DNA from: an uncultured Mucilaginibacter sp.
Lineage (GTDB): Bacteria > Bacteroidota > Bacteroidia > Sphingobacteriales > Sphingobacteriaceae
NCBI GenBank assembly: GCA_903863845.1
Contig: CAIPDP010000111.1
Coordinates: 1-51,445 of the forward strand
Length of the DNA: 51,445 nucleotides
Direction: 5' to 3'
In this document: positions 40,197 to 41,855 of the stretch, piece after piece
How the letters are laid out: each line of letters starts with the position of its first letter
Numbering within the stretch: the first letter of the stretch is position 1
Notes under the pieces: model-generated
Databases searched by the model: none
Told to the model about the DNA's origin: nothing
The model's input: only the letters and a program-made list of their open reading frames with translations
Program-made: the position numbers and the translations under genes

Positions 40197-40269
40197 TTCT
40201 TTCAGGTATTAATTGTAGTTACCTTTAAAACAAAAGCCCCGTCCCAATATTGATGTGGACGGGGCTGTG

Positions 40270-40343
40270 CTCCTGAGGCTGGGCTCGAACCAGCGACCCT
40301 CTGATTAACAGTCAGATGCTCTAACCGGCTGAGCTACTCAGGA
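40270..40343 (-). tRNA. tRNA-Asn (GTT)
   Basis: On the minus strand a complete cloverleaf is readable: the acceptor TCCTGAG/CTCAGGA with discriminator G, D arm GCTC...GAGC, anticodon arm TCTGACTGTTAATCAGA with anticodon GTT in the loop CTGTTAA, and T arm CTGGTTCGAGCCCAG. CCA is not encoded. Its promoter (TTG at 40396-40398, 20 bases, TACTTTTG at 40368-40375) lies just upstream. A partial copy stands at 40793-40883. Confidence 0.97.
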
Positions 40344-40367
40344 ATCTACTTTCCGGTTTGGAGTGTG

Positions 40368-40398
40368 CAAAAGTATGCGTTTCATATCAAATTTACAA
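40368..40398 (-). promoter_or_regulatory. Promoter of the intact tRNA-Asn
   Basis: The -7 element TACTTTTG (40368-40375) and the -33 TTG (40396-40398) are spaced by exactly 20 bases, 24 bases before the tRNA start. Confidence 0.75.
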
Positions 40399-40462
40399 CG
40401 CTAGTTTGAAAAAAAGCATCAAATTGTTGACTATGAATAAGTTCTTATTAATAATTGAATGA

Positions 40463-40753
40463 TTAAACCGCGTACTTCGCTTTCAGTTTTTCAATTATTT
40501 CAGGATATAACTTAAGCGATTGAAAATATTTTTTGGATTTCATCTTTTTTATGTGTGATTCGATATTTACAGCCTGCTTCCTATCAAGACACTCAATAAA
40601 ATAATAAACTTCCCAGGGAATACCCACCTTCGTTGACGAGCCTGCAAAGGTGCCGTTATTGTGTTGTTGTAGTCTTTGGCCTAAATTTTCCGTTTGACCT
40701 ACATAATACTTTTGGGTTGATGCCGAAAAAAGTATATAAACGTAAATGATCAC
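40463..40753 (-). CDS. GIY-YIG nuclease-domain protein (UPF0213 type)
   Basis: This 96-residue single-domain protein begins at a GTG start (MIIYVYILFS). GIY-YIG blocks: YVYIL near the start, KYYVGQTENLGQRLQQHNNG with the catalytic-type Arg27, and NIESHIKKMKSKKYF with the metal-binding Glu. Free-standing UPF0213-type proteins are common in Bacteroidota and their role is open; other GIY-YIG proteins are homing or repair nucleases. It lies between two copies of the tRNA-Asn promoter and 5' half and reads in the same direction as the tRNA, so it may be transcribed from the upstream copy. Confidence 0.9.
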   Translation of the reverse strand: MIIYVYILFSASTQKYYVGQTENLGQRLQQHNNGTFAGSSTKVGIPWEVYYFIECLDRKQAVNIESHIKKMKSKKYFQSLKLYPEIIEKLKAKYAV

Positions 40754-40792
40754 TAAACAAAAAAGATAAATGTCAAATTATATTTAAGAGGT

Positions 40793-40883
40793 TGATTAAC
40801 AGTCAGATGCTCCCCCGATAGCTATCGGGGCCGGCTGAGCTACTCAGGAATCTACTTTCCGGTTTGGAGTGTGCAAAAGTATG
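40793..40883 (-). repeat. Partial tRNA-Asn copy with its 5' flank
   Basis: Bases 40793-40883 copy 40302-40377: the anticodon stem, D arm, acceptor 5' strand, and 34 bases of leader including the -7 element, with no other differences seen. The exception is that TAA in the D-loop is replaced by CCCCGATAGCTATCGGGG (40813-40830), a perfect 18-bp palindrome. The copy stops immediately 3' of the anticodon loop. It cannot form a tRNA. Together with the intact gene it brackets the GIY-YIG gene in direct orientation. Confidence 0.92.
40813..40830. repeat. 18-bp perfect palindrome in the tRNA copy
   Basis: CCCCGATAGCTATCGGGG takes the place of three D-loop bases. Palindromes with the core CCCGATAGCTATCGGG are, from memory, frequent in genomes of this family, so this may be an inserted copy of a dispersed element. 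No other copy was seen in this window. Confidence 0.8.
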
Positions 40884-40904
40884 ATTTCCAGGTTAATTTC
40901 ACAA
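40874..40904 (-). promoter_or_regulatory. Second copy of the tRNA promoter, before the partial tRNA
   Basis: TACTTTTG (40874-40881) and TTG (40902-40904) again have a 20-base spacing. The -33 lies just outside the duplicated block, so it was either already there (this being the original site) or is a chance match. If active, transcription would run through the partial tRNA into the GIY-YIG gene. Confidence 0.55.
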
Positions 40905-40937
40905 TATTTGCGTAAAATTTTTATAAAAAAATTCAGG

Positions 40938-41855
40938 GTGAGTTTATTAGTTATTGGTAGTGTGGCATTTGACGCCATTGAAACCCCTTTCGGGAAGACA
41001 GATAAAATTGTTGGCGGTGCTGCAACCTATGCCAGTTTAGCGGCGTCGTATTTTTGTGATTCGGTAAAAATTGTTGGGGTAGTTGGCGACGACTTCCCGC
41101 AGAGCGAGATCGACAATTTTAACCAGCACCATATTGATACTGAGGGACTGCAGGTAAAAATAGGCGAGAAATCGTTTTTCTGGAGCGGAAAATACCATAA
41201 TGATATGAACAGCCGGGATACTCTGGTAACCGAATTGAATGTATTGGGCACCTTTGACCCTATCATTCCTGAGTCGTACCAGGACAGTGAATTTTTGCTG
41301 TTGGGTAACCTATCACCCCAGGTTCAGCAAACCGTTATACAACGCCTTAAAACACGCCCCAGGCTGATCGTATTGGACACCATGAACTTTTGGATGGACG
41401 TGGCGTTGGAAGAATTACTGGAAACCATAAAAAAGGTTGATGTACTTACCATCAATGATGCCGAAGCACGCCAACTCTCTGGCGAATATTCATTAGCAAA
41501 GGCTGCACAGCGTATATTGGAACTTGGCCCGAAATACCTGATCATCAAAAAAGGCGAGCATGGCGCATTGCTGTTTGGCGAAGGAAAAATATTTTCGGCA
41601 CCGGCCCTCCCACTGGAAGAGGTTTTTGATCCAACAGGGGCCGGAGACACTTTTGCAGGTGGATTTGTGGGTTATTTAGCAAAAGTTGGAACCATCAACT
41701 TTAATAATTTAAAAAATGCCATCATCTATGGCTCGGCTCTTGCATCGTTTTGCGTTGAAAAATTCGGCCCCGAAAAACTAAAACACTTAACCCAGGCAGA
41801 AATAGCCGAGCGCGTGCAACAGTTTGTGAGCCTGTCGAAATTTGAAATAGGGTAA
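40938..41855 (+). CDS. PfkB-family sugar kinase
   Basis: I start the protein at the GTG at 40938 (305 residues, beginning SLLVIGSVAFDAIETPFG after Met), where the family normally starts. The ATGs at 40869 and 40881 would add residues encoded by the duplicated tRNA flank. PfkB blocks: IVGGAATYASLAASYF near the start and DPTGAGDTFAGGFVG at the end with catalytic Asp237. Members phosphorylate sugars, nucleosides or related compounds with ATP; the substrate is unknown. Confidence 0.9.
   Translation: MSLLVIGSVAFDAIETPFGKTDKIVGGAATYASLAASYFCDSVKIVGVVGDDFPQSEIDNFNQHHIDTEGLQVKIGEKSFFWSGKYHNDMNSRDTLVTELNVLGTFDPIIPESYQDSEFLLLGNLSPQVQQTVIQRLKTRPRLIVLDTMNFWMDVALEELLETIKKVDVLTINDAEARQLSGEYSLAKAAQRILELGPKYLIIKKGEHGALLFGEGKIFSAPALPLEEVFDPTGAGDTFAGGFVGYLAKVGTINFNNLKNAIIYGSALASFCVEKFGPEKLKHLTQAEIAERVQQFVSLSKFEIG

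Follow-up and report, generated by a model that had tools for sequence, protein, structure and literature searches.

A minimal GIY-YIG nuclease unit beside a displaced piece of tRNA-Asn in Mucilaginibacter, and its relatives at other tRNA genes

A 51,445-nucleotide stretch of DNA from an uncultured Mucilaginibacter sp. (GenBank assembly GCA_903863845.1, contig CAIPDP010000111.1), referred to here as the window, carries a small GIY-YIG nuclease gene between a partial and an intact copy of tRNA-Asn. The features of this locus are as follows.

40234..40267, minus strand: terminator-like hairpin and T-run 3' of the intact tRNA-Asn, read from the letters
40269..40343, minus strand: intact, rebuilt tRNA-Asn(GTT) (ARAGORN; Rfam RF00005, 69.9 bits)
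40344..40377, minus strand: downstream leader copy ahead of the intact tRNA-Asn, holding TACTTTTGC, with the same bases as the PfkB-side copy
40463..40753, minus strand: GIY-YIG nuclease gene, 96 amino acids, GTG start, single domain (PF01541, 55.3 bits, E value 8.4e-15)
40793..40849, minus strand: 5' remnant of tRNA-Asn, positions 1-42 less three D-loop bases, plus hairpin
40813..40830, no strand assigned: palindrome CCCCGATAGCTATCGGGG, standing for the D-loop TTA in the remnant
40850..40883, minus strand: PfkB-side leader copy, reading into the remnant and the GIY-YIG gene
40869..41855, plus strand: PfkB-family kinase gene, anchor of the orthologous locus (PF00294, 108.4 bits)

The minus-strand order of leader (40883-40850), tRNA-Asn 5' piece, GIY-YIG gene, leader (40377-40344), and intact tRNA-Asn had been proposed in a first-pass annotation of the letters and was confirmed by ARAGORN, Rfam, and PF01541. 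The direct repeats that it described as identical outside the D loop were borne out as well: their two blocks match at 53/53 and 20/20 bases, and the 415 bp between them hold the GIY-YIG gene as the only open reading frame (ORF) of at least 50 amino acids. Its placement of the break right after the anticodon GTT was incorrect, since the partial copy extends five bases beyond the anticodon (35-37), to position 42, and reaches positions 47 and 53 in two relatives (L023 of genome G041 and L024 of genome G030, respectively). The reported D-loop replacement is present and could be refined. The three bases TTA have given way to CCCCGATAGCTATCGGGG, found at the same remnant position in G041 and G030, and such hairpin inserts proved to be a hallmark of the class described below. 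The core of this palindrome, CCCGATAGCTATCGGG, is a repeat with 83 places in the window's 4.0-Mb genome. A random D-loop variant was therefore ruled out as its origin.

A single tRNA-Asn gene, that at 40269-40343, was found in the window's genome (4.0 Mb in 201 contigs, 99.9% complete); five further matches to it are all partial, with identities of 75 to 79%. The PfkB-side leader occupies the place of the leader in relatives that have no insert. The TACTTTTGC motif resembles the Bacteroidota -7 element, and the leader is presumably a promoter; a sigma-70 scan of the window used a consensus outside Bacteroidota-type promoters and is uninformative on this leader. A consensus terminator scan, with a loop limit of 8, reported none after the tRNA-Asn. 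At the gathering score, tRNA was the sole Rfam match in the window, and the tRNA-Asn gene is uninterrupted; a group I intron within it, which would have given an Rfam intron match, was not found in this search. The start of the PfkB ORF (40869) was set mechanically and overlaps the leader.

The 96-residue protein belongs to the GIY-YIG superfamily, with a weaker match to T5orf172 besides that to PF01541. Residues Y17, G19, R27, H31, and E65 are invariant across 19 aligned rows, and among 23 aligned rows Y, G, R, and E are invariant and H is present in at least 90%; these conserved Tyr, Gly, Arg, His, and Glu residues are presumably catalytic. The tRNA-linked proteins of this kind are mostly 80 to 97 amino acids long, with a few of up to 118. 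No separate DNA-binding region was found after the nuclease domain, each of the two tRNA-linked proteins scanned being covered for the most part by one Pfam domain. Profile matches to solved structures were to UPF0213 proteins, SLX1, UvrC, and an intron endonuclease, the nearest being UPF0213 (PDB 1zg2 and 1ywl) and SLX1. PHROG 5123 was matched weakly (E value of 0.004 to 0.005), and an assignment to Seg was not obtained. Relatives evolve under purifying selection, with a median ratio of nonsynonymous to synonymous substitution rates (dN/dS) of 0.12 (range, 0.06 to 0.59) in the 15 of 42 relative pairs for which dS was estimable.

The first-pass annotation had suggested searching for relatives that lack the insert, and such empty sites exist. 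Of 100 genomes of the genus, 94, including the window's own, contained the PfkB-side flank, and the 94 stretches fetched (G083 gave two) made 95 together with the window. GIY-YIG genes were called by profile at an E value of 1e-3 and tRNA pieces at a minimum of 15 bases and an E value of 0.05. One intact tRNA-Asn with neither a GIY-YIG gene nor a tRNA piece detected was seen in 74/95 stretches. The others held a GIY-YIG gene with one or more pieces (n = 5; the window, L083, L132, L126, and L153), a GIY-YIG gene without a piece (n = 2; L072 and L111), two intact tRNA-Asn genes without a GIY-YIG gene (n = 2; L074 and L098), or an intact tRNA plus a piece without a GIY-YIG gene (n = 3; L101, L130, and L143, the piece in L143 lying 1.2 kb off and perhaps due to chance); the intact tRNA was absent from nine stretches.

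A GIY-YIG gene was present at the locus in 7 of the 95 stretches, and both polarities were found. In polarity A (window, L083, and L132) a 5' piece is followed by the GIY-YIG gene and the intact tRNA, while in polarity B (L126 and L153) the intact tRNA and its terminator precede the GIY-YIG gene and a 3' piece. The palindrome and its D-loop position are common to the three polarity A elements, and the L083 and L132 proteins are 65 to 69% identical to that of the window. In G054, the closest of the drawn genomes (90% over the PfkB flank), the window's arrangement is missing and another, decayed GIY-YIG gene lies on the far side of the tRNA; G072 (82% over the PfkB flank) has an empty site. In six of the seven filled loci, the window's among them, the intact tRNA-Asn matches many empty-site tRNAs over all 75 bases, and 45 tRNA genes in the 94 fetched stretches, five of them in filled loci, have this sequence. 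In L072 (from G054) and L111 (from G015), different, decayed GIY-YIG genes lie right behind the tRNA-Asn terminator and appear to be other arrivals at the same tRNA gene. In L101 (G051) and L130 (G073), no GIY-YIG gene was detected between the intact tRNA and the tRNA-Asn remnants, whose arms are hairpin-swapped and which are possibly deletion footprints of earlier elements.

The association of a partial tRNA with a GIY-YIG gene, which had also been proposed as something to look for elsewhere, recurs at many isotypes. Within the genus, GIY-YIG loci adjoin tRNAs of many isotypes (Asn, Leu, Val, Gly, Asp, Ser, Arg, Met, and others), and a piece of the adjoining tRNA is usually found across the gene from it. 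A tRNA call was found within 300 bp in 23/27 of these loci; two of the calls sit on the remnant itself (L038, called Ile, and L040, called Stop), leaving a separate tRNA in 21/27. Three loci (L042, L043, and L051) were excluded as UPF0213-type after their lack of tRNAs was seen, and their inclusion would give 23/30; the L043 protein covers the excluded places (100% itself, 92% the L042 protein, and 76% the L051 protein). UPF0213-type GIY-YIG loci of the genus had no tRNA in 30/30 fetched stretches of 1.7 to 3.3 kb, compared with 23/27 for the tRNA-linked loci (Fisher test, 3e-12). The earlier description of the window's gene as UPF0213-type needs qualifying: its protein is not an ordinary member of that tRNA-free clade. 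The window's genome contains a second, decayed element at C51 (L003, 1449-1628), where a truncated GIY-YIG gene is followed by a tRNA-Met remnant with TCCGCCTTAGGCGGA.

Beyond the genus, a draw from the phylum showed a tRNA within 300 bp in 25/29 loci, or in 27/29 when two arrays whose tRNA lies farther from the fetched unit are counted. A scan of contigs from named genomes yielded 108 relatives; the best 80 of these carry the labels Bacteroidetes, Ignavibacteria, Cloacimonadota, Neomarinimicrobiota, Verrucomicrobia, Lentisphaerota, Nitrospira, and Deltaproteobacteria, of which single ones may be wrong because many records are metagenome-assembled genomes. In this set of 80, a same-strand upstream tRNA lay within 350 bp in 58 loci and a remnant of the locus's own upstream tRNA was present in 54, with 15 loci beginning less than 350 bp from the gene. 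We then used as a hold-out 47 further phylum loci, one per genome, for which expectations had been written down first. Five of them lie at contig ends (including L317, with a tRNA just downstream), and the other 42 had an upstream tRNA within 350 bp (n = 28), a tRNA just downstream, as in polarity A (n = 7), a tRNA farther upstream, behind other GIY-YIG units (n = 3), or no tRNA (n = 4; L324, L330, L334, and L353). A remnant was visible in 28/47.

All sets pooled gave 183 loci, or 178 after removal of duplicates. An upstream tRNA was present within 350 bp in 121 of these and only at 351 to 1,300 bp in 10; a further 16 had a downstream call only, some of these calls being on the remnant, and 15, in which the sequence starts less than 350 bp upstream of the gene, showed no tRNA. 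Where an upstream tRNA was available, a block of that same tRNA was found between -40 and +200 of the domain end in 119/131 loci (113 at an E value of 1e-3). The same test with a tRNA of another isotype gave 16/131 (3 at 1e-3), and the locus's own tRNA in a region 600 to 840 bp downstream gave 2/91 (2 at 1e-3). The commonest order among relatives is intact tRNA, terminator, GIY-YIG gene, and 3' remnant, i.e., the opposite polarity to that of the window. A match to the GIY-YIG profile was obtained in 189/296 genomes, an upper figure for the tRNA-linked class because the profile also matches UPF0213-type proteins.

Units also occur in tandem. The largest array read, in G390 (L179), comprises five 315-bp units with one intact tRNA-Asp, five remnants, and a hairpin in each unit, and arrays of two or three units were found at L175, L182, and L167. 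At L172 (G369), the GIY-YIG unit directly follows nine consecutive tRNA-Asp and tRNA-Gly genes, possibly an amplification of intact tRNAs. At L027 (G015), partial repeats of the tRNA-Leu upstream region lie beside a Leu-type unit at about 1246-1374.

The remnants share a peculiar anatomy. Among 113 inserts lying between two alignable remnant blocks, 105 contained CCG..CGG and 105 formed a stem of at least 5 (shuffled mean, 9.7). They are located in the anticodon arm (n = 55), the T arm or loop (n = 50), the variable region (n = 6), the D arm (n = 1), and the acceptor (n = 1). Usually, 13 to 17 bases of the anticodon arm are replaced by a hairpin of 14 to 19, or 8 bases of the T loop by one of 15 to 19. 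In the loci read by eye, the GIY-YIG reading frame runs into the remnant, and its stop often falls on a tRNA or hairpin codon. A 5' piece was present in 13 of the 14 polarity A loci, the fourteenth (L317) starting at a contig end; by eye, the hairpin of these 13 pieces lies in or near the D arm in 11, in the anticodon arm in L344, and in the T arm in L356.

A strict rule by which the complete arm nearest the nuclease gene is swapped was tried and rejected, as just 60 of the 90 remnants with a CCG..CGG insert fit it. Of the fitting remnants, 34 start in the D-arm stretch and show an anticodon-arm swap, and 26 start in the anticodon loop or later and show a variable/T swap; 11 remnants starting in the D-arm stretch show a variable/T swap instead. 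Among the 19 remnants that start at or before position 10, the D arm was the first swapped in none (anticodon in 18, variable/T in 1). D-loop swaps that follow very short blocks escape the block method; such swaps were spotted on reading three Leu units (L025, L026, and L028).

A longer motif, TCCCG..CGGGA, was found near the gene end in 11/27 genus, 19/29 phylum, and 51/80 named loci, with duplicates between the phylum and named sets partly kept (e.g., L177 and L229, which occupy the same place on equally long contigs). Controls gave 0/30 in UPF0213-type loci, 0 with the reversed motif, and 3/240 in shifted windows. We do not regard it as a universal signal: the named set came from an Asp-heavy query and a CCCG..CGGG stem was present in just 10/47 hold-out loci, and CCG..CGG holds better. 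Five of the seven genome sites of TCCCGANNNNTCGGGA in G390 sit in its array, and the hairpin there is thus not merely a host repeat. The looser pattern TCCCG(4-10)CGGGA occurred 12 to 204 times per genome in 21 other host genomes, exceeding the reversed control in 20/21. Such per-genome counts are uninformative on mobilization by the nuclease, and the pattern with a 4-base spacer misses the window's own palindrome. At some of the places L007 to L021 in the window's genome, CCCGATAGCTATCGGG forms the centre of a longer inverted repeat (L011, about 1501-1516) or lies inside another short repeat (L014 to L017), as if hairpin tips had been replaced there too.

When the tRNA isotypes were mapped onto a tree of 121 nuclease domains, built from 80 columns and with many of its forks unresolved, the 98 rows bearing an isotype label required 30 isotype changes, compared with a mean of 63.2 after shuffling; 0/200 shuffles were as low. 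A Val/Arg clade (support of 98, starred) covers several host families, and the window's genus contains several separate isotype lineages. Asp and Met rows of Cloacimonadota, Neomarinimicrobiota, and Ignavibacteria/Bacteroidota form one group, and the Asn rows with Myxococcota and Nitrospirota labels form a pair, in both cases at forks of 81 to 89. Relatives of the L180 protein were found in 15 of 50,697 phage records, all below 60% identity, and in 2 of 72,556 plasmid records, a rarity which suggests that the spread is seemingly independent of those vehicles.

Judged from these comparisons, the window element is a member of a large, recurring class of tRNA-linked GIY-YIG loci. At the level of sequence, the loci establish that such an element lies within one tRNA transcription unit and that an intact tRNA remains (in the window, the sole tRNA-Asn found in the genome), that the displaced tRNA end lies beyond the nuclease gene, usually with one arm or loop exchanged for a CCG...CGG hairpin, and that units can form arrays. 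They likewise establish nuclease lineages that are largely tied to an isotype and cross host families; the crossing of phyla is likely rather than established, because the forks concerned are weakly supported (81 to 89). We consider it probable that these loci represent a minimal selfish element of about 0.3 to 0.5 kb, in which a small GIY-YIG gene is coupled to a disabled fragment of one particular tRNA gene. On the best reading, tRNA genes serve the element as target, promoter, and homology, and a rebuilt tRNA is left behind. The earlier suggestion that a nuclease unit entered the tRNA gene and rebuilt a full copy fits this picture, except that the break is not fixed at the anticodon and most relatives have the opposite polarity.

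The putative element would move as follows. The nuclease would recognize and break the DNA of a tRNA gene of its own isotype, and the break would be repaired by homologous recombination via the tRNA leader or terminator of the element-bearing copy. Such repair would copy the element in, with the donor's tRNA end completing the host tRNA. Transcription of the gene probably comes from the tRNA promoter, directly through the remnant in polarity A, as in the window, or by terminator read-through in the commoner polarity B. The arm swap would most likely shield the remnant from cutting, from use as a repair template, or from folding as a tRNA.

Several observations speak against this interpretation or narrow it. 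The case is built on comparisons from which we infer both cutting and mobility. The window's other tRNA flank was unmatched in the fetched G054 and G072 stretches, so that only one flank anchors the empty site. A looser search with reading of the letters revealed, in L124 at least, a decayed tRNA-like scar in a stretch counted as having a single tRNA, so that some empty sites may be former filled sites. The rebuilt tRNA of the filled allele shows none of the protective sequence change expected of a classical homing endonuclease; being identical to many empty ones, it implies that a nuclease cutting the tRNA gene would cut its own host too. This difficulty might be resolved by repair from a sister chromosome, by low expression, or by a target other than the tRNA sequence, e.g., the hairpin, an idea kept alive by the presence of SLX1, named as a structure-specific endonuclease, among the nearest solved proteins. 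By eye, leader copies look more alike within than between species, a pattern as compatible with local duplication or gene conversion as with import. In the hold-out, the expected proportion of at least 70% with an upstream tRNA was narrowly missed (28/42), and that of at least 50% with CCCG..CGGG palindromes failed (10/47; CCG..CGG, 20/47). No tRNA at all was found in 16 of the 178 distinct loci. Finally, near-copies account for part of the isotype clustering, and the crossing of phyla depends on those weakly supported forks.

A tandem tRNA duplication around a housekeeping GIY-YIG gene, with the second copy decaying and gaining palindromic repeats of the host, would produce a similar layout by passive capture. 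Tandem intact tRNA-Asn genes without a GIY-YIG gene do occur (L074 and L098), as do tRNA pieces without one (L101 and L130, L143 being perhaps a chance match), and the window's palindrome is a genome-wide repeat in its genome. We nevertheless consider this origin unlikely, given the same anatomy at many isotypes in records labelled as several phyla, the absence of tRNA from 30/30 UPF0213-type loci of the genus, and the concentration of five of seven TCCCGANNNNTCGGGA sites of G390 within one array. Tandem duplication capturing the gene, which had been offered earlier as an alternative to insertion, could be the DNA-level event at each insertion but does not explain the recurrence. Similarly improbable, in our view, is a defence or toxin function in which the protein cleaves the tRNA of its own isotype under stress or phage attack, the intact gene ensuring supply and the remnant RNA serving as decoy or antidote. 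Isotype-tied lineages, purifying selection, and remnants that retain tRNA-like segments with one arm swapped would suit such a function, as would a weak local PADLOC match of the window protein to PDC-S14 (26 bits over 29 residues; no match for the L179 protein). On the other side, GIY-YIG enzymes are known as DNA nucleases, in line with the profile matches to UPF0213, SLX1, UvrC, and an intron endonuclease; moreover, the window's unit contains no second protein gene, and tandem arrays and decayed copies look selfish.

Two further explanations seem very improbable. The nuclease gene might be cargo left behind after the loss of an integrase-bearing element from a tRNA-integrated island, an intact tRNA with a displaced end being the classic integrase footprint. 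The units read by eye are, however, small and hold the nuclease gene alone, with its frame running into the remnant, the hairpin swap recurs, and both polarities are found. Equally improbable is a dosage device, the nuclease being retained for amplifying the adjacent tRNA gene when that tRNA is limiting, as reported for SegB of phage T6 (PMC13096335). The nine tRNA-Asp and tRNA-Gly genes upstream of the L172 unit would agree with it, but the repeated unit in the arrays L179, L175, L167, and L182 carries, by eye, the remnant and not a working tRNA.

The proposed selfish element resembles several known systems. Tyrosine integrase islands in tRNA genes have an intact tRNA at one end and a displaced tRNA end at the other, a layout which the element shares; it differs in having no integrase in the unit, in its size of about 0.3 to 0.5 kb, in its hairpin-swapped remnant, and in that either tRNA end can be displaced. 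In REP/RAYT systems, a nuclease-type gene (Y1 transposase) is flanked by short palindromes whose family can be genome-wide. The element likewise combines a nuclease gene with palindromes of a potentially genome-wide family, but it has a GIY-YIG gene and no Y1 transposase between the repeats, and its palindrome lies inside the tRNA remnant, replacing part of it. UPF0213-type proteins (1zg2 and 1ywl), the nearest solved relatives by profile, form in the genus a clade with neither tRNA nor TCCCG..CGGGA (0/30 each). With Seg-type homing endonucleases the element shares an ORF outside any intron or intein and related alleles free of the gene (74/95). Its remnant is altered, yet its rebuilt tRNA equals many empty alleles, and its proteins have no separate DNA-binding region after the nuclease domain.

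The T-even phages encode SegB, a GIY-YIG homing endonuclease of the free-standing type (Chihara et al. 2026, PMC13096335). According to that report, SegB of phage T6 cuts within tRNA genes and co-localizes with phage tRNAs, a tRNA-Tyr segment is amplified together with the nuclease gene, and recombination of the tRNA 5' region with the segB 3' region is proposed. Both systems place a small GIY-YIG gene beside tRNA genes, but SegB is phage-borne and amplifies an intact tRNA, whereas the element is chromosomal, with a displaced and usually hairpin-swapped tRNA end and isotype-tied lineages. Closer in layout are the mORFs of fungal mitochondria, described as a host gene core, an imported end, an endonuclease ORF, and the displaced native end (Beaudet et al. 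2013, PMC3630166); the endonuclease is GIY-YIG in atp9, where the native end is fully replaced, and LAGLIDADG in others. Compared by layout alone, polarity B is the same, with an ORF between the completed gene and its displaced end. The mORFs concern mitochondrial protein genes and an end thought to be foreign, while the element concerns bacterial tRNA genes and an end that is unchanged (in 6/7 filled Asn loci); the hairpin swapped into the displaced end is a feature of the element. By analogy, the element would thus belong to a known kind, that of endonuclease elements supplying the end of the gene they invade. The portion seen of a 2006 survey of the GIY-YIG superfamily (PMC1564403) had no word starting with "Bacteroid" and mentioned tRNA in other contexts. 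Among the top-listed open-access matches, judged from the openings of their abstracts and largely without subscription papers or preprints, none described GIY-YIG elements with a tRNA remnant in bacterial chromosomes.

A bolder view, which we put forward tentatively and think more doubtful than not, is that of a new class of one-gene mobile element, in which the arm-swapped remnant is a working part. The hairpin would then be a self/non-self mark or the binding site of the nuclease, as a DNA cruciform or as RNA, genome-wide palindromes of the same kind in some hosts would be its non-autonomous offspring, and the host tRNA promoter, terminator, and homology would supply the rest.

The findings suggest that very small selfish elements are widespread at essential tRNA genes, where they are easy to miss, as ORFs of 80 amino acids and remnants of tRNAs are seldom examined side by side. 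Their small, isotype-tied nucleases form a natural panel; the elements would account for tRNA pseudogenes next to intact tRNAs in Bacteroidota and give direct access to the question of how the sole copy of an essential gene can be occupied by a selfish gene. If the arm-swapped remnant is a working part, there would be a case for a new class, and if the hairpin is the nuclease's site, these elements would provide a mechanism for the spread of palindromic repeats.

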